Positions 13,198 through 20,285 of a stretch of DNA of 22,034 nt are shown here, piece by piece. This DNA comes from a virus. The number at the start of each line of letters is the position of its first letter. Position 1 is the first letter of the stretch. Under the pieces are notes generated by a model, which saw only the letters and a list, made by a program, of their open reading frames with translations, was not told the DNA's origin and did no database searches. The stretch spans positions 1 to 22,034 of the IMG/VR virus record IMGVR_UViG_3300023180_000452; one strand, written 5' to 3'. A program made the position numbers and the translations under genes.

Positions 13198-13572
13198 ATG
13201 GTAAATTATTTTAAAGATCCAACACCCACTCCTGCTCCCGCAGGAGAACCTACAAAACATTTTATTTTAACAGGAAGTGACATTAATCTTCCTATTTGTG
13301 GCCTAACAAATGCTGATGCTGTAATTATTATGACTCCTCTTCAGGTTACTTGTGTTGAATGTCTTCAAATGATAGATGACTTGGCAAGAGCCAGTAATTT
13401 TACACAAGCTACTGAAATAGTATCTAATATATCAAATAGACCTGGCAATATAATAGGTGATCAAGAAGAAACTTTTTATAAGAATATGACTAATTTTAGT
13501 TTTGTTACTGAATTAGGTGACCCGGAAGAAGAGTATTTAACTAAAATAGCAAATATAAGAGATAATTTATAG
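13198..13572 (+). CDS. Small protein with putative H-C-CxxC zinc-binding motif, paralogue 1
   Basis: This 124-residue protein has no function I can assign. After a Pro-rich N-terminus (PTPTPAPAGEP) it has KHFILTG, then PICG and VTCVECL. H21, C34, C52 and C55 could bind one zinc ion. The next gene has the same four residues in the same order (KHIIFSG, PLCG, VTCKNCL) and a similar end (FYKNMTNF there YYYNMVEF), so the two are paralogues. The ribosome site is AGGA at 13188-13191, six bases before ATG. It lies between virion protein genes, but it is soluble-looking and does not resemble a fibre. It could be an assembly factor, a regulator or a minor virion component. Confidence 0.82.
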   Translation: MVNYFKDPTPTPAPAGEPTKHFILTGSDINLPICGLTNADAVIIMTPLQVTCVECLQMIDDLARASNFTQATEIVSNISNRPGNIIGDQEETFYKNMTNFSFVTELGDPEEEYLTKIANIRDNL

Positions 13573-13581
13573 GAGATAAAA

Positions 13582-14118
13582 ATGCACGAAATTCAAGAAC
13601 TTTTACAGCAAGATCCAAACTCACTCACATCTCAAATCAAAGCTGCAAGACCAGATAAACATATTATATTTTCTGGATTTTTTGATACAGAAGCGGTAAC
13701 TATACCTCTTTGCGGAGATATTAGTAATCCTTTAGCTACTAGAAAAATTTCCCGAGTGACTTGCAAAAATTGCTTGCTTAGATTAAAAGAAATTTCTACT
13801 ATGGAAACACATCAAGAAGCTTTAAATTATATAGCAACTTTTGCCCCTGTTTTTCAAGATCCTGATTTATCTGTAATCGACGATAAAATAGGAAGAGAGC
13901 CCACTCTTGCTGCAAAAGAAGCAATGGAAAAGAGATTTATTCTACAAAATTATAGATTAGAAGTTGCTGCTGATGCTCCAAAGGCAATGATAGGGCCAAG
14001 CAAAAATGCTTACTATTATAACATGGTAGAGTTTGAGATATTTAATACGGACGGAACAAAAAATCAAGAAACCTTAGACATGATTCAAGCTCAAATAGAC
14101 TCTCTTGATAGTCCATAG
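13582..14118 (+). CDS. Small protein with putative H-C-CxxC zinc-binding motif, paralogue 2
   Basis: This 178-residue protein is the paralogue of the preceding gene. The putative zinc ligands are H27, C44, C61 and C64 (KHIIFSG, PLCGD, VTCKNCLLRL). The region after the CxxC is longer and helical (about 66-135), then comes YYYNMVEFEIF and a helical end (ETLDMIQAQIDSL) that matches ETEYLTKIA-like helix placement in the first copy. AGGAG at 13571-13575 lies six bases before ATG and overlaps the stop of the first copy, so the pair is one translational unit. It is the last gene before the internal promoter. The function is unknown; Cys and His spacing is conserved while the rest has diverged, which argues for a metal site under selection. 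Confidence 0.82.
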   Translation: MHEIQELLQQDPNSLTSQIKAARPDKHIIFSGFFDTEAVTIPLCGDISNPLATRKISRVTCKNCLLRLKEISTMETHQEALNYIATFAPVFQDPDLSVIDDKIGREPTLAAKEAMEKRFILQNYRLEVAADAPKAMIGPSKNAYYYNMVEFEIFNTDGTKNQETLDMIQAQIDSLDSP

Positions 14119-14119
14119 T

Positions 14120-14127
14120 GGTATACC
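14120..14127. promoter_or_regulatory. Possible operator: 8-bp palindrome upstream of promoter
   Basis: GGTATACC is a perfect 8-bp inverted repeat ending 16 bases before the -35 box. It does not extend further as a palindrome and occurs once here. It could bind a dimeric regulator or be chance; the evidence is weak. Confidence 0.25.
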
Positions 14128-14143
14128 TCATAAAAAATAATTC

Positions 14144-14172
14144 TTGACAATTACGTTAGGGGTTGCTATAAT
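14144..14172 (+). promoter_or_regulatory. Perfect consensus sigma-70-type promoter with extended -10
   Basis: TTGACA (14144-14149), a 17-base spacer and TATAAT (14167-14172) match the bacterial housekeeping consensus at all twelve positions with optimal spacing. TG at 14164-14165 also gives an extended -10 (TGCTATAAT). It lies in one of the few intergenic gaps of the window (14119-14225). Transcription would start near 14179 and read into the 119-residue gene. TTAGGGG occurs at 14156-14162 inside the spacer and again at 14195-14201 in the leader, where CCCTTAGGG could form a small hairpin or operator. Confidence 0.9.
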
Positions 14173-14225
14173 TCTCATAATATTGAAAAAACCCTTAGGG
14201 GAGTTAGTTACCGGAAAAATCAATA

Positions 14226-14585
14226 ATGTCGTTTACAGCACGAGACCTACAACCATTGGTACGGGGAGATGACTGGAATATAAAGTTAACCCTTACCAGT
14301 GAAAATTCCCCTGTGGACATAACTGGCTACAGTTATATCTTTACGCTGAAAGAAAACATTGACGATATTGATGCAGACGCTGCATTACAGATTACTATAA
14401 ATGCTTCTGCTCCGGATGATGCCCTCGGTATTATCTATATTACCGCAACAAACGCACAAACAAATAATCTTGTAGCTAATAAGAATTACCATTACGACAT
14501 ACAACAAACCGATACAGGAGGAAATGTCCAGACGCTGCTAATTGGTAAGGTCAAAGTCGTAAAAGACGTTACTAGAACTACTTAA
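14226..14585 (+). CDS. BppU-like baseplate/fibre protein, single domain
   Basis: This 119-residue beta-rich protein has the pattern RGDDWNIKLTL...VDITGYSYIFTLKENID...YHYDIQQTDTGGNVQTLLIGKVKVVKDVT. I associate this with the N-terminal domain of BppU-type baseplate upper proteins of Gram-positive siphophages and similar proteins in other phages. The first half of the 19518-20285 gene has the same pattern (RGDSWDITVTI, IFTLKSDID, ILIGSLRVRKDVT), so the two are paralogous domains. It is the first gene behind the consensus promoter. The ribosome site near ATG is weak (GGA at 14213-14215); a better AGGGGAG lies about 22 bases upstream. The protein probably attaches the following 600-residue protein or another fibre to the virion; this role is inferred. 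Confidence 0.8.
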   Translation: MSFTARDLQPLVRGDDWNIKLTLTSENSPVDITGYSYIFTLKENIDDIDADAALQITINASAPDDALGIIYITATNAQTNNLVANKNYHYDIQQTDTGGNVQTLLIGKVKVVKDVTRTT

Positions 14586-14642
14586 AAACTTTTCCTAGGC
14601 GAACCCGCCAAAGAGCTTTTTAGCTTCAAAAAGGAATGCCCC

Positions 14643-16445
14643 ATGTCACGAATAAGTGATCCTGATTTTCTGACGAGATCTAGCGCACCTAGTACAGGTT
14701 CTCCGAATGGAAATGTATACTTTGATCTAAACAATTTAACGATCGAGCTAATTTCAGACTCAGATGAGTCTACTTTTTCCCCAAATCCTCTGCTAAATGC
14801 AGGAGGTGACGCAGGTGGCGTTGATTTGCAAGCACTGTATTCTTTTATTAAGGATATGTGGAAATCTGAAACTGATTTACCTAAATACCCTTTCCCAATG
14901 GAAGCAATTACAGCGGAGCAATTTGAATTTCGTAATGGTTGGAGACTTACAAATTCGACAGATTCTGGTCTTGTAGACTCTATTCCTTATATTCGTAATG
15001 GTGGATGGGCAGAAAGAGACTCAGCAGGTGTTATTCAGTTCGAATATGCTGGTATTATTACTCTCGGTAATATCGAATCTAACCACAGAGTTTACTACGC
15101 TTTTGACGATGATACAACAAAAACTGACTTTGACTATGACGGTCGGGTTAATCAGCCTATTCTTGTATTTACAAATGGGGGTACTGACGAAAGAAGTAAA
15201 GTACTCACTGTTTATATTCGTTCAGCTCCAGAAGGTACTACAGGTAACGTAACTGGCTTTACTTATGACCAGGCTACTACAACCGATATTGGTGTATCCA
15301 CAATTGCTACTCAGGTGTATCGATTCCCACTTGCAGAAGGCGTAGACTCAAATATTGCTCTGCTTGATTCAGAGATTACGGGATCTCCCCATGATGCCGT
15401 ATTTGATAATATTAGAATCGAATACTATGCTTCTCCAGGAGAAACTATTTCCGATACTGGTACTTCTTTTACTGTTGGGGTCGTAATTGATGCAAGATTT
15501 AGTGATTCAGGAGATTTTGCTACACTTGCTCAAATTTATCAATATGTACAGCTACAGTTACGTTCTACTGGCGATATTAATACTTCCCCAGGTGATGAAA
15601 CTAGCACTCACTTTGGCGTACTTGCGGACCCGCTCTTAGAATTTGTGGGGGCTACTCTGAAAACTCTTCGTCAGTCAGATAACGATGGCGTATTTATTGA
15701 GGGAGTTGGTAATGATTTCCGAAACGACGTAGAATTTGTTGACGATAGCGGAACTGCTCAGACTTATCCGTTTACAGTGTCTGTTACATTGAACTTCAAT
15801 CAAAATATGATTGATGATGCAAATGCAAAATATTACCTCTTTTATACAAATATTACCGAGGTATCTCCAGACGCAACTTTTGGTACCGCAACAGCAGTTC
15901 TTGTAACAGAAAGCGATGCGGTAGTATCTCCAGACCCAGAAGTATCTGGATTTTTGCATAATGAAACTCCTACAGGACTTACTGGGCCTACTTCTGGTAC
16001 TGGTGCAAGCGCTACTGCGGGTGGATTTGCTCTTAATGTTACAGCTACTAGCCCGGACTACGATGCTACAGGAAACGGAGAGTTGGAAGGAAAAGTACTC
16101 GTTATTACTTCCGGAGACAATGCAGGTAGATACTTCATAACTTCAAATACAGGAACTACTATTACTATTAATTCAGATGTTCCTTTTGATGCTACTGATG
16201 CTTCTATTAGTTATGAGATTAAGGATAAGAATACTGCCGGTACTTATAACTTCGTATATGATTATACTGCAAATGACGACGGGGGTCGCACTCCTGATGC
16301 AAATGCAGCAGTAACTCTTGTAGGTCTTGGCCTGCACTCAGCTCAGTATGCAACAGCTACTGGCTTGATAGAAAAACTCAATACTGCAAGTATTACAGTT
16401 TCAAATCCTTTGGAAAGAAACTACGCAGATCCTGTTGGTGTATAA
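14643..16445 (+). CDS. Large virion structural protein, probable fibre or baseplate component
   Basis: This 600-residue acidic, beta-rich protein is made from the internal promoter. The N-terminus (GNVYFDLNNLTIELISDS, VDLQALYSFIKDMWKSET, YPFPMEAITAEQFEFRNGW) matches a pattern I recall from structural proteins of marine phages, including T4-like cyanophages. The middle contains many beta strands and Thr/Gly turns. Residues about 430-560 have a Gly/Thr linker, then GKVLVITSGDNAGRYFITSNTG, resembling a small beta domain found in phage fibres. There are no transmembrane segments or cysteines. AAGGAA at 14631-14636 is six bases before ATG. The 57-base gap before it has two weak hairpins. A strong terminator follows within 10 bases of the stop. 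Its own transcription unit suggests high copy number; the exact virion position is unknown. Confidence 0.82.
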   Translation: MSRISDPDFLTRSSAPSTGSPNGNVYFDLNNLTIELISDSDESTFSPNPLLNAGGDAGGVDLQALYSFIKDMWKSETDLPKYPFPMEAITAEQFEFRNGWRLTNSTDSGLVDSIPYIRNGGWAERDSAGVIQFEYAGIITLGNIESNHRVYYAFDDDTTKTDFDYDGRVNQPILVFTNGGTDERSKVLTVYIRSAPEGTTGNVTGFTYDQATTTDIGVSTIATQVYRFPLAEGVDSNIALLDSEITGSPHDAVFDNIRIEYYASPGETISDTGTSFTVGVVIDARFSDSGDFATLAQIYQYVQLQLRSTGDINTSPGDETSTHFGVLADPLLEFVGATLKTLRQSDNDGVFIEGVGNDFRNDVEFVDDSGTAQTYPFTVSVTLNFNQNMIDDANAKYYLFYTNITEVSPDATFGTATAVLVTESDAVVSPDPEVSGFLHNETPTGLTGPTSGTGASATAGGFALNVTATSPDYDATGNGELEGKVLVITSGDNAGRYFITSNTGTTITINSDVPFDATDASISYEIKDKNTAGTYNFVYDYTANDDGGRTPDANAAVTLVGLGLHSAQYATATGLIEKLNTASITVSNPLERNYADPVGV

Positions 16446-16452
16446 CTTTGAT

Positions 16453-16486
16453 AGTGGGGCTCTTCGGGGCCCCGCTTCTACTTTTT
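16453..16486 (+). terminator. Rho-independent terminator with UUCG tetraloop
   Basis: A 10-bp stem, AGTGGGGCTC pairing with GGGCCCCGCT (two G-U pairs), closes a cUUCGg tetraloop. TTCTAC and a T5 run at 16482-16486 follow. It starts eight bases after the stop of the 600-residue gene. The stem is very GC-rich in an AT-rich genome, so efficient termination is expected. Genes after it have no visible promoter nearby, so some read-through from the main late transcript is implied. Confidence 0.92.
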
Positions 16487-16496
16487 AGGTTTAAGG

Positions 16497-16658: not shown

Positions 16659-18740
16659 ATGGCAGGCGAGAAGAGATATACAAGAATACCACCAGAGAGC
16701 ACTGGTGATCGTGTGTACATGATACACACTGCCGAGATTGAGTACAAGAATTTTAACTCGATTGTGGGCGGCAGCACTGACCATTCATGGCAGATTGGTC
16801 AGATGTACAATGTTGCAGGGTTTGGTGGTAACGGCATGATGCACGTTCACGGCGTATTTGATCGCGGTGACGGTACAGGCATCCTTGCGGTTCACTATAA
16901 TAAAACAGCTAAGTTTGAAAATTTAGAGCCTGCCGCAGACGCTATCATTTCTTATGAAGGCCAAAGCATTGCTCAAGTCACCCTCGCCTATGACGTATAC
17001 ATACCTGCCAACAATATCATGGGTTACGACAATCCAGAATACGGTATGGATGTTGACATCACAGGTTCGGCAAACGTTCGATTTGCAGAAGGTCTCCCTC
17101 AGTTAGACGCATGGGGTAAATTGCGTACATCGGGTGCTACTCATATCGGTGACTATGTATTTGGTCAAAAAGACGTTCTCGATGATAACTTCTCTCCGTC
17201 AGAATTAAATGGTGGCTCTGTCGTTTACGATAACGACAGAAACTCAGTCACAGTCAAAGTGCCAGGAGCTACTGATCCCGACCATGTAGCAAATGAAGGA
17301 TTTGCCTCTTGTTCATCTAACCTATACCACCACTATGTTGCGGGTAGTTCACATCTTTATATGGCCACTGCGCGATTAAATAACACAGGGGGTGCATCGG
17401 GTTGTGTAAGAAACTGGGGTTTGTTTGATGCTAGCAACGGTTTCATGTTCCGACTTGATCAAAACAACAATCTAAATGTTGTTATTCGAAGTTCCACTTC
17501 GGGCAGTAGAGTCGATACGGTAATCGCACAAAGTGATTGGAACGGTGATAAAGTCGACGGATCTGGTGATTCACAATCAACATTAGATTTATCAAAAGAT
17601 AACATTTACTGGATTGATATTCAGTGGCACGGTGCAGGTCGAGTACGATTTGGTACATACATCGACGGTGCTCGTGTTGTGATGCATTCATATTTTCATG
17701 GCAATAACTACGAAGTTGCTATGTCACAGACTGCTTCATTGCCCACGTGTTGGAGTGTAAAAGCAGTTACTGGTCCAACTGATGATACGTCTATCGAAAC
17801 ATGGTCTGCATCGGTATGGACTGAGACAACATTAGATCTTAATGAGAAAGGTAAGTCATCGACCTATGCAACACAACACGCAACTGTAACCGCAAATATT
17901 TCAGACGATTGGCAATACCTCTTTTCTATCACTCCAAAAGTAGAACTACCTAACGGAGAAGTAAACCACACACTCTATATGCCAACCTCTGTATCTGCGT
18001 ATGGTTTTGATGCTGGATTCGATGGTGGTACGGCTACTCCTGGGAAAGGTCTTGGTTTAGATGCAGTAATTGATCTCAAAGCAGAGATTAATTCTGTCGC
18101 TACTGGATTTGACTTTTCAGCAGTTCCCGGTACTTCCGTAGAGGTAGACTCTTCGGCTACATCTTATGAGAACGGCAAGATTCTACTTCAAGAAATGTTC
18201 GCTGGACGATACGAAACAGATACAACTGATACTTTTAATAACTGGCAATACGGTGCTGTTAAAAACTTTGCGGATGATGGCGGTACTATTGTCAATAACA
18301 TTCAGTCCGTAACAAATGCTTCTCCCGCTGTAATTACAGTTGCATCGGGAGAAAGAGTTGAAGTGCGTGATCCGATTGCGGCAGGTGCAGCAGAATTTCC
18401 ACTCAACATTGCAGAGTATGCATCAGACGTAGATGGAAACCAACAGTACGAAGTCTATGACGCACCCGCAGGTTGGGAATCGTTCGGCGGTACTTACTAC
18501 TATGTGAAACCTGTTGCGGCAAACCAGTTCGAAGTCTATAGTGATTATGACAGAGCGACCGATACGTTCTCAAATCCAGTTGATACTACAAGTCTTCCAG
18601 CATGGCCTGGCGGTAACGCATACATCAAAGGATTCAGAGGTTCACGAATCATCTGGTCTTTCTATGCTAAGACAAGAACCGCTTTACACAATAATGTGAA
18701 ACTGATGGTCACAGTAAACTGGAAAGAGATTATTCAGTAA
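16659..18740 (+). CDS. Large virion structural protein resembling cyanophage structural proteins
   Basis: This 693-residue protein has features I recall from large structural proteins of marine T4-like phages: LDAWGKLRTSGATHIGDYVFGQKD, VRNWGLFDASNGFMFRLDQ, RSSTSGSRVDTVIAQSDWNGD and NIYWIDIQWHGAGRVRFG. The region about 170-400 looks like a concanavalin/LamG-type beta sandwich, which would suit glycan binding. The C-terminal part is also beta-rich and ends LHNNVKLMVTVNWKEIIQ. AAGGA at 16647-16651 is seven bases before ATG. Codon use differs from the neighbours: CGN codons make up roughly half of Arg codons, while the tape measure gene uses almost only AGA. This suggests acquisition from another phage. 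A receptor-binding or side fibre role is likely but inferred. Confidence 0.82.
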   Translation: MAGEKRYTRIPPESTGDRVYMIHTAEIEYKNFNSIVGGSTDHSWQIGQMYNVAGFGGNGMMHVHGVFDRGDGTGILAVHYNKTAKFENLEPAADAIISYEGQSIAQVTLAYDVYIPANNIMGYDNPEYGMDVDITGSANVRFAEGLPQLDAWGKLRTSGATHIGDYVFGQKDVLDDNFSPSELNGGSVVYDNDRNSVTVKVPGATDPDHVANEGFASCSSNLYHHYVAGSSHLYMATARLNNTGGASGCVRNWGLFDASNGFMFRLDQNNNLNVVIRSSTSGSRVDTVIAQSDWNGDKVDGSGDSQSTLDLSKDNIYWIDIQWHGAGRVRFGTYIDGARVVMHSYFHGNNYEVAMSQTASLPTCWSVKAVTGPTDDTSIETWSASVWTETTLDLNEKGKSSTYATQHATVTANISDDWQYLFSITPKVELPNGEVNHTLYMPTSVSAYGFDAGFDGGTATPGKGLGLDAVIDLKAEINSVATGFDFSAVPGTSVEVDSSATSYENGKILLQEMFAGRYETDTTDTFNNWQYGAVKNFADDGGTIVNNIQSVTNASPAVITVASGERVEVRDPIAAGAAEFPLNIAEYASDVDGNQQYEVYDAPAGWESFGGTYYYVKPVAANQFEVYSDYDRATDTFSNPVDTTSLPAWPGGNAYIKGFRGSRIIWSFYAKTRTALHNNVKLMVTVNWKEIIQ

Positions 18741-19333
18741 TGCCCTCTATACATTTCAATTATGGTAACTATGCTTTATGGGAACTTTACCATAAAGTTA
18801 CTTTTGATGGATTGAATAAACATATATTAGTAAATTCTGATGTAACGGAATTAGATATAAAAGAAGATGTCTACTCTGCTTGGAAAGAATGGGTATCTTC
18901 TTTTAATGACAATGCAAAATGGGATCCAGCTATAAGAAGCACCGGCGGAGACCCAACAGTAGGCTCAAGCTTTTCGGGTGATATATACTTTCTTATAAAT
19001 GACTGGAAATTGCTTATAGATTTTACAAAAGTAAGAGTAACTGGAGTTCTTTTCTCAGATGATTTTGATACTGCTTATTATGCTTACGATCTTACTCCTC
19101 AATATGCGGTAGAAGTAAGCTCAATCGTAAACACAGTTTCAGAAGGTGTTTCGGCTTCCGCAGTTACTCCTATACTATTAGAACTGCAAAATAGAATTGG
19201 GGAAATGTGGCAAGTTGATGGACTTGACTCCTCAAATAACGTAACGATTACAGATGAGTCAATCACTGTAGGAAATATTACTGTAACAATCGGTCAACCA
19301 AACAGGGATACTACAACACTTAGCAGATCATGA
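18740..19333 (+). CDS. Phage structural protein, fibre/baseplate-associated, conserved in marine phages
   Basis: This 197-residue protein has two recognisable parts. Residues about 14-100 (KVTFDGLNKHILVNSDVTEL, DVYSAWKEWV, NDNAKWDPAIRSTGGDPTVG, IYFLINDWKL) match a pattern I recall from virion proteins of several marine and other siphophages. The C-terminal part (LQNRIGEMWQVDGLDSSNNV, then a beta strand pattern to TTTLSRS) matches the short 'GLD' domain often seen at the ends of such proteins. The start is coupled to the preceding gene by TAATG; the only upstream purine run (GGAAAGAGA, 18720-18729) is about 11 bases away. It ends with an ATGA overlap. It probably bridges fibre and virion; its precise position is unknown. 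Confidence 0.8.
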   Translation: MPSIHFNYGNYALWELYHKVTFDGLNKHILVNSDVTELDIKEDVYSAWKEWVSSFNDNAKWDPAIRSTGGDPTVGSSFSGDIYFLINDWKLLIDFTKVRVTGVLFSDDFDTAYYAYDLTPQYAVEVSSIVNTVSEGVSASAVTPILLELQNRIGEMWQVDGLDSSNNVTITDESITVGNITVTIGQPNRDTTTLSRS

Positions 19334-19518
19334 GTTTAGCATCAAGACTTTCCATAGCCACAAACGGATTCAGGGGTGGAAACAGTATTTTTGTTGATTC
19401 TGCGCTGAAGCTCTCTTTAGAGTATGAAGAAATAGAAGTGGACGTAGAGACTGTACAAGCTATAGGAGCTGATTTCGGCCCAGTAAAAGTAGATATTGAA
19501 ATTGAGGGTTGTTACTAA
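19330..19518 (+). CDS. Small protein of 62 residues, unknown function
   Basis: This protein starts SLASRLSIATNGFRGG and continues as a beta-strand-rich acidic stretch (LSLEYEEIEVDVETV, VKVDIEIEGCY). Similar short genes beginning MSLASR often follow the preceding gene type in phages, from memory. The ATG overlaps the previous stop (ATGA) and there is no good ribosome site, so expression depends on coupling. Its own stop overlaps the next ATG (TAATG). The alternating hydrophobic pattern of its end resembles the 28-residue micro-ORF at 21776. Its tight overlaps on both sides and conserved frame support a real gene. Confidence 0.7.
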   Translation: MSLASRLSIATNGFRGGNSIFVDSALKLSLEYEEIEVDVETVQAIGADFGPVKVDIEIEGCY

Positions 19519-20285
19519 TGGTTGCTAAGGTTTTTACATTTCCAGAACAAATTAGAGGTGACTCTTGGGACATTACAGTAACAATTGTAGACTCCTCTAA
19601 TAATGCGATTGACATTAGTGGAAATGAGTACATATTTACACTGAAGAGCGATATTGATACCTCAGATGTAGATGCCGACCTTCAATATGGCCCAGTGTCT
19701 CCAGGCTCTCCAGATGGATCAAACGGAATACTCAATTTTGTAATACCTGGAAATTTTACTAAAGACTTAGAAGGAAAAACTTATAAGTATGACTTGCAGG
19801 AAGTAACTTCGGCAAATAAAGTCTCAACAATACTTATAGGCAGCTTACGAGTTCGCAAAGATGTAACTATAACAGCTACGTATTCGGGAGTAACAGATGA
19901 AAGTTTTAGCTCTGCTGGGCTTGGGATCTATTCTGGCTCTACTACTACTACCTCTCCTACTGAATTATATTTAGGTGGAACTTCTGGAAGTACACTCAAT
20001 ATATCAGAAAATAGTGTGTTGTCTTTTACAGCTTTGGTAGTAGGAAAGGATATAGTAACAAATGAATCGTGCGCATTTGAATTCACGGGAGCTATAGAGC
20101 GAGACACAGGAAACACTACAGCAATAATTGGAACCGTAGGAAAAACAATACTCGGTCTAGAAAATGCGGCTTTCGATGCTAGTGTATTAGCTGGCACAAA
20201 TAAATTGCAAATTAATGTAACTGCGGCATCTGCTAACGAAACAAGATGGTCTGCAAGAGTAAATTACACGGAGGTTAGTTTCTAA
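19518..20285 (+). CDS. BppU-like N-terminal domain fused to a beta-rich fibre tip domain
   Basis: This is a 255-residue protein. ATG at 19518 is chosen over an in-frame TTG at 19509, because GAGGG at 19504-19508 has proper spacing only for the ATG and TAATG joins it to the previous gene. Residues about 10-125 repeat the pattern of the 14226-14585 protein: RGDSWDITVTI, DISGNEYIFTLKSDID, YKYDLQE, ILIGSLRVRKDVT. Residues about 135-255 form a second domain of a type I recall from fibre ends: LNISENSVLSFTALVVGKD, CAFEFTGAIERDTG, NKLQINVTAASANETRWSARVNYTEV. It probably binds the baseplate through the first domain and exposes the second. The 3' end carries GGAGG, which serves the next gene. Confidence 0.82.
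   Translation: MVAKVFTFPEQIRGDSWDITVTIVDSSNNAIDISGNEYIFTLKSDIDTSDVDADLQYGPVSPGSPDGSNGILNFVIPGNFTKDLEGKTYKYDLQEVTSANKVSTILIGSLRVRKDVTITATYSGVTDESFSSAGLGIYSGSTTTTSPTELYLGGTSGSTLNISENSVLSFTALVVGKDIVTNESCAFEFTGAIERDTGNTTAIIGTVGKTILGLENAAFDASVLAGTNKLQINVTAASANETRWSARVNYTEVSF

Follow-up and report, generated by a model that had tools for sequence, protein, structure and literature searches.

The window, the whole 22,034-nt stretch of viral DNA analysed here, which comes from an uncultured salt-water phage, contains within its late structural operon a conserved unit in which a full-consensus host-type promoter and a GC-rich hairpin frame two genes. We propose, with a probability of about 0.62, that this is a high-output transcription unit making in quantity the two products that it encodes, BppU1 and a homolog of gp53 of the Synechococcus phage Syn5. 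The proposal is drawn from sequence elements, their conservation, protein homologies and synteny, and it extends from these to transcription, timing, amount of protein and place in the virion.

The features of the unit are collected in Table 1. The first-pass annotation had reported a promoter matching the sigma-70 consensus at all twelve box positions, with a 17-nt spacer and an extended TG; it is present at that position, and a promoter scan showed it to be the sole 12/12 match within the window. Since 0.03 such sites are expected per 22-kb window and 3 of 100 shuffled sequences have one, the likelihood of a chance origin, judged on one window, is low but not negligible, and it is conservation that decides. 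The first-pass annotation had not mentioned the A-tract AAAAAATAATTC, whose stretch AAAAAATAA (14132-14140) lies immediately 5' of the −35 box. From its sequence, this tract resembles the proximal subsite of an UP element, the AT-rich region 5' of the −35 box that is bound by the α C-terminal domains (PMC10911233). A perfect promoter need not be the strongest, because promoter escape can limit full-consensus promoters and in vivo expression peaked when one box deviated from the consensus (PMC10911233). Just 5' of the promoter, at 13198-14118, are two small genes of low GC content (0.32-0.34), which have weak similarity to each other (19%, E 0.006) and no family matches.

Table 1. Coordinates of the features of the promoter-BppU1-gp53 unit in the window (feature, position, strand, basis)
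A-tract AAAAAATAATTC, UP-like proximal element abutting the −35 box	14132-14143	+	sequence; AAAAATA and the C preceding TTGACA invariant in 14/14 lineages
Predicted sigma-70 full-consensus promoter, extended TGn	14144-14172	+	sequence; exact in 34/36 contigs
−35 box TTGACA, followed by the 17-nt spacer	14144-14149		
TGC of the extended −10	14164-14166		
TATAAT	14167-14172		
Untranslated leader	14177-14225	+	predicted start 14177-14179; length 43-58 nt in relatives
BppU1, 119 aa, stand-alone Ig-like BppU-type domain	14226-14585	+	phrog_1084, AlphaFold2, Foldseek
600-aa homolog of Synechococcus phage Syn5 gp53	14643-16445	+	tblastn
GC-rich hairpin, UUCG loop, imperfect U-tract; terminator-like or 3'-end hairpin	16453-16487	+	hairpin scan

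A BppU1 protein query against 2.9 million virus contigs, which was blind to the promoter, returned 36 loci, and an alignment query added two. Promoters were compared in 36 contigs, a set that includes the window and excludes two contigs near-identical to it. In 34 of these 36 close-BppU1 contigs the exact TTGACA-17-TATAAT is found at the same place; the other two (L022 and L025) carry an 11/12 promoter with a −35 box that reads TTGACT. The distance from promoter to start codon in the relatives is 78-93 nt. No such promoter was found in L044, a distant BppU1 relative (37% identity). When the comparison was made among 14 lineages, defined by less than 80% nucleotide identity across 130 nt upstream, all 14 had the 12/12 promoter, and the hexamers, AAAAATA, the C preceding TTGACA and the G of TGn were invariant, while the complete TG of the extended −10 was kept in 13. 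With the sites aligned on the promoter itself, and with zero BppU1 loci dropped for a missing promoter, the information per position in the 14 lineages was 2.0 bits in the hexamers, against 0.63 for the spacer and 0.58 for the downstream part; spacer and leader have drifted while the hexamers stayed fixed. One more lineage (L153) shows the same promoter-BppU1 design. Purifying selection acting on the function of the promoter, beyond the shared ancestry of the stretch, best explains the pattern.

At the other end of the unit, the hairpin described earlier, with a 10-bp stem and a UUCG loop, was recovered as AGTGGGGCTC-UUCG-GGGCCCCGCT at 16453-16476 (10 pairs, 7 of them GC). It is the top terminator-like site of the window scan, and the U-tract after it is imperfect (TTCTACTTTTT). 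Sixteen of 17 relatives, counting the window, have a GC-rich hairpin after gp53, with differing sequences and a median z of −2.7; L153 is the lone relative lacking one. The hairpin may either terminate the transcript or shield a 3' end that arises by processing, an ambiguity that arises because the U-tract is good in some relatives (L012, L014 and L017) and missing in others (L015 and L025). The hairpin must also leak, because the downstream genes are without a clear promoter of their own. Because the promoter is kept in diverged lineages and the hairpin in nearly all relatives, the framing of the unit appears to be under selection; it is real and conserved, as well as likely functional.

Between promoter and hairpin the two open reading frames of the earlier description were confirmed (Table 1). 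The order promoter-BppU1-gp53 recurs in L012, L013, L014, L037-L040 and L102, and a gene of ~550 codons lies between BppU1 and gp53 in L011, L015, L017, L018, L023, L025, L026, L029, L031 and L043, with an additional small ORF in L025. This gene is homologous to the gp53-adjacent gene of virus Rctr197k, and its C-terminal part is weakly homologous to Syn5 gp54. In L016, L019 and L041 no gp53 was found after BppU1. Searching with a gp53 alignment recovered 161 relatives, 80 of which were kept, and none of the kept relatives without a close BppU1 had a comparable promoter; isolated 12/12 matches in gp53 relatives were seen in L120 (inside an ORF) and L134, both in unrelated contexts. The promoter tracks BppU1, not gp53.

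The unit had also been proposed to be moron-like. A moron would have been acquired with its own promoter and terminator and would be useful in a lysogen or outside the late phase. The possession of a promoter and a terminator-like hairpin fits such an origin, and in two more distant phages (L103 and L104) a gene of similar size to the ~550-aa gene stands with gp53 in a module without BppU1 and without the consensus promoter. However, when 14119-16486 was checked for presence or absence as a block, in loci collected via BppU1 or gp53, its components varied independently. The GC content of the two cassette genes (0.394 and 0.404, against 0.404 for the window) is that of their neighbours, the pairing of promoter and BppU1 is unbroken in every close relative, and bacterial genomes yielded no BppU1 relative that would point to expression in a lysogen. 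We consider a moron very unlikely.

BppU1 matched phrog_1084, a family of unknown function, with an E value of 1.3e-20, and had weak links to phrog_3304, an L-shaped tail-fibre assembly family (E 6e-4), and to the L-shaped tail-fibre assembly protein 8hqz_Q (E 0.35). Its AlphaFold2 model is a confident Ig-like fold (pLDDT 86.7), which Foldseek matched to phage proteins, among them S5MV39 (E 6.8e-6, TM 0.67/0.74), named for its BppU N-terminal domain; the fold matches in the PDB included a connector chain of phage Bas63 and many antibody Ig domains. As modelled, BppU1 has the Ig-like fold of the BppU N-terminal domain type. Pfam gave no match to BppU1 at E 0.01, and a search of nine proteins of the window, both cassette products and seven of their neighbours among them, likewise produced no hit. 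No BppU1 relative was found in cultured phages, and a DNA-level search of phage records returned no match. The window encodes a second protein of this kind, BppU2 (19509-20285, 258 aa), whose N-terminal domain is 42% identical to BppU1 and whose gene has no consensus promoter.

The 600-aa protein is related to Syn5 gp53 with a tblastn E value of 4e-48 and 36.8% identity, and the homology covers most of its length, namely the first 421 residues and a further stretch in the C-terminal part. Its model was too uncertain (pLDDT 67) and a fold search with it gave no useful match. Syn5 gp53 is annotated as a structural protein, and we take gp53 and gp54 to be the horn proteins of that phage. The Syn5 horn sits at the vertex opposite the tail (PMC10575957). 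Two observations concern the downstream genes: a 693-aa protein (16659-18740) contains a region related to the phrog_1645 virion structural proteins of many Synechococcus phages, and a 197-aa protein (18740-19333) is a homolog of Syn5 gp55 (34% over 70 residues), the Syn5 order thus being partly kept.

Perfect consensus promoters, which had been called rare, number 15 in G004 (92 kb), 11 in G007 (96 kb) and 9 in G011 (34 kb), and some lie in the structural block; a reversed control pattern occurs once in G007, once in G011 and in none of the other larger relatives. At L058:2052-2085 (G003:22052-22085), 5' of a glycosyltransferase-like gene, two full-consensus promoters on opposite strands overlap. 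Apart from the BppU1 promoter, most full-consensus promoters of the larger relatives are placed outside the structural block, mainly on the opposite strand, and G011 has no other such promoter on the strand of its BppU1 promoter. This distribution would suit the main rival to control of stoichiometry, namely that the sigma-70 promoter is a timing device through which BppU1 and gp53 are expressed at an early stage or during the whole of infection, ahead of the late switch, for slow appendage assembly or a role in the cell. We nevertheless judge early expression to be unlikely: full-consensus promoters at the tail-tube/chaperone site of G002, G003 and G004 show that they are not confined to early genes, and TGn, characteristic of the BppU1 site, is missing from most of the others, which suggests a different use.

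The tail-tube gene marks a second conserved late site, where a full or 11/12 promoter with an A-tract lies near a terminator-like hairpin; the gene names used for this site are a reading from sequence and gene order, without a database match. The order in G002 and G003 is terminator-like hairpin, promoter, tail-assembly-chaperone gene. In G001, G004, G005, G012 and G015 a 12/12 or 11/12 promoter with an A-tract comes directly after the tail-tube ORF, and at these loci (L177-L181, in G001, G005, G004, G015 and G012, respectively) a GGGGGA-type GC hairpin with a T-rich tail is found ~10 nt past the predicted start; in G007 a hairpin is followed by a weaker promoter-like site. G001 is a 30-kb contig that is 99.9% identical to the window across the full window length, so the phage from which the window derives very probably has both promoter sites. 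The tail-tube promoter and hairpin could give rise to a ~40-nt RNA or to attenuation. A broader generalization, which we regard as quite doubtful, is that full-consensus promoters of host type, placed at fixed sites and each coupled to a nearby hairpin, drive the late operon in an entire unclassified group of salt-water siphoviruses, and that the tail-tube hairpin, right after the start, would yield the ~40-nt RNA or load an antiterminating polymerase; control of stoichiometry by promoter plus hairpin in this way would not have been described before.

That strong GC hairpin at the tail-tube site, together with the constrained length of the BppU1 leader and a short stem that can form in many relatives, with compensatory change (GUUC/GAAC in L037, GUCC/GGAC in L040), would also be consistent with a promoter and leader that serve mainly to load antitermination or some other RNA-based control, with the activity residing in the leader hairpin. 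The stem, however, is not significant by energy. Folding energies of the leaders equal those of shuffled sequences (mean z −0.07), the stem test was weakly above shuffles with p 0.06 or higher at every locus, the leader of the window has no clear stem, and Rfam gave no match to the leader. The leader was rejected as a structured RNA, and RNA-based control as the main role of this region is highly improbable.

Dedicated high expression of abundant virion proteins, already suggested in the first-pass annotation, is thus kept as the best reading of the sequence. Host RNA polymerase with sigma-70 would initiate at the A-tract/−35/TGn/−10 promoter, the transcript would cover BppU1 and the gp53 homolog, the GC hairpin 3' of gp53 would end or protect it, and the output of the two genes would exceed that of the preceding and following genes. 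BppU1 would be an adaptor domain, present in multiple copies, that docks appendages such as fibres on the virion; the gp53 homolog would belong to the virion surface or to an appendage. Transcription of the late block would restart internally at two or more points, this unit being one and the site adjoining the tail-tube gene another. If this is true, selection has kept an ideal host promoter, complete with its A-tract and extended −10, unchanged inside the late operon of diverged phages, the control of virion-part stoichiometry becomes directly testable, and BppU1 and gp53 are marked as virion parts probably needed in quantity.

Morons of lambdoid phages lie in the late operon with a sigma-70 promoter and a terminator of their own; the unit is likewise placed and has its own promoter and terminator-like hairpin. 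Unlike those morons, it has neighbour-like composition, keeps promoter and BppU1 together in all close relatives and, among loci collected via BppU1 or gp53, shows no block-wise gain or loss between conserved neighbours. In TP901-1 and 80alpha, N-terminal domains of the BppU type form fibre-carrying rings (PMC10747895). The Ig-like docking fold predicted for BppU1 is shared with the N-termini of TP901-1 BppU, 80alpha FibU-FibL and the T5-type L-shaped fibre collar protein, the last of which also has a weak sequence link to it; unlike these proteins, BppU1 is a free-standing domain without a C-terminal fibre part. With the gp52-gp55 region of Syn5 (EF372997) the window shares the gp53 homolog and, further on, the gp55 homolog. 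A gene related to the Syn5 gp54 C-terminus is present in relatives, whereas gp53 of the window has no gp54-like neighbour; Syn5 gp52 was rejected as a BppU1 homolog (profile E 0.5), there being no detectable kinship, and the tail genes of the window are of siphovirus type whereas those of Syn5 are T7-like. In the T7 class III unit phi10 - gene 10 - T-phi, a strong internal promoter and a terminator raise one abundant virion protein. The unit resembles it in having a presumably strong internal promoter and a subsequent terminator-like hairpin inside the late block; its promoter is of the host sigma-70 type and that of phi10 of the phage-polymerase type, and it encodes a BppU-type domain and a gp53 homolog where T7 gene 10 encodes the capsid protein. 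By this analogy, the late operon is best read as segmented to set the amounts of its subunits, as in T7.
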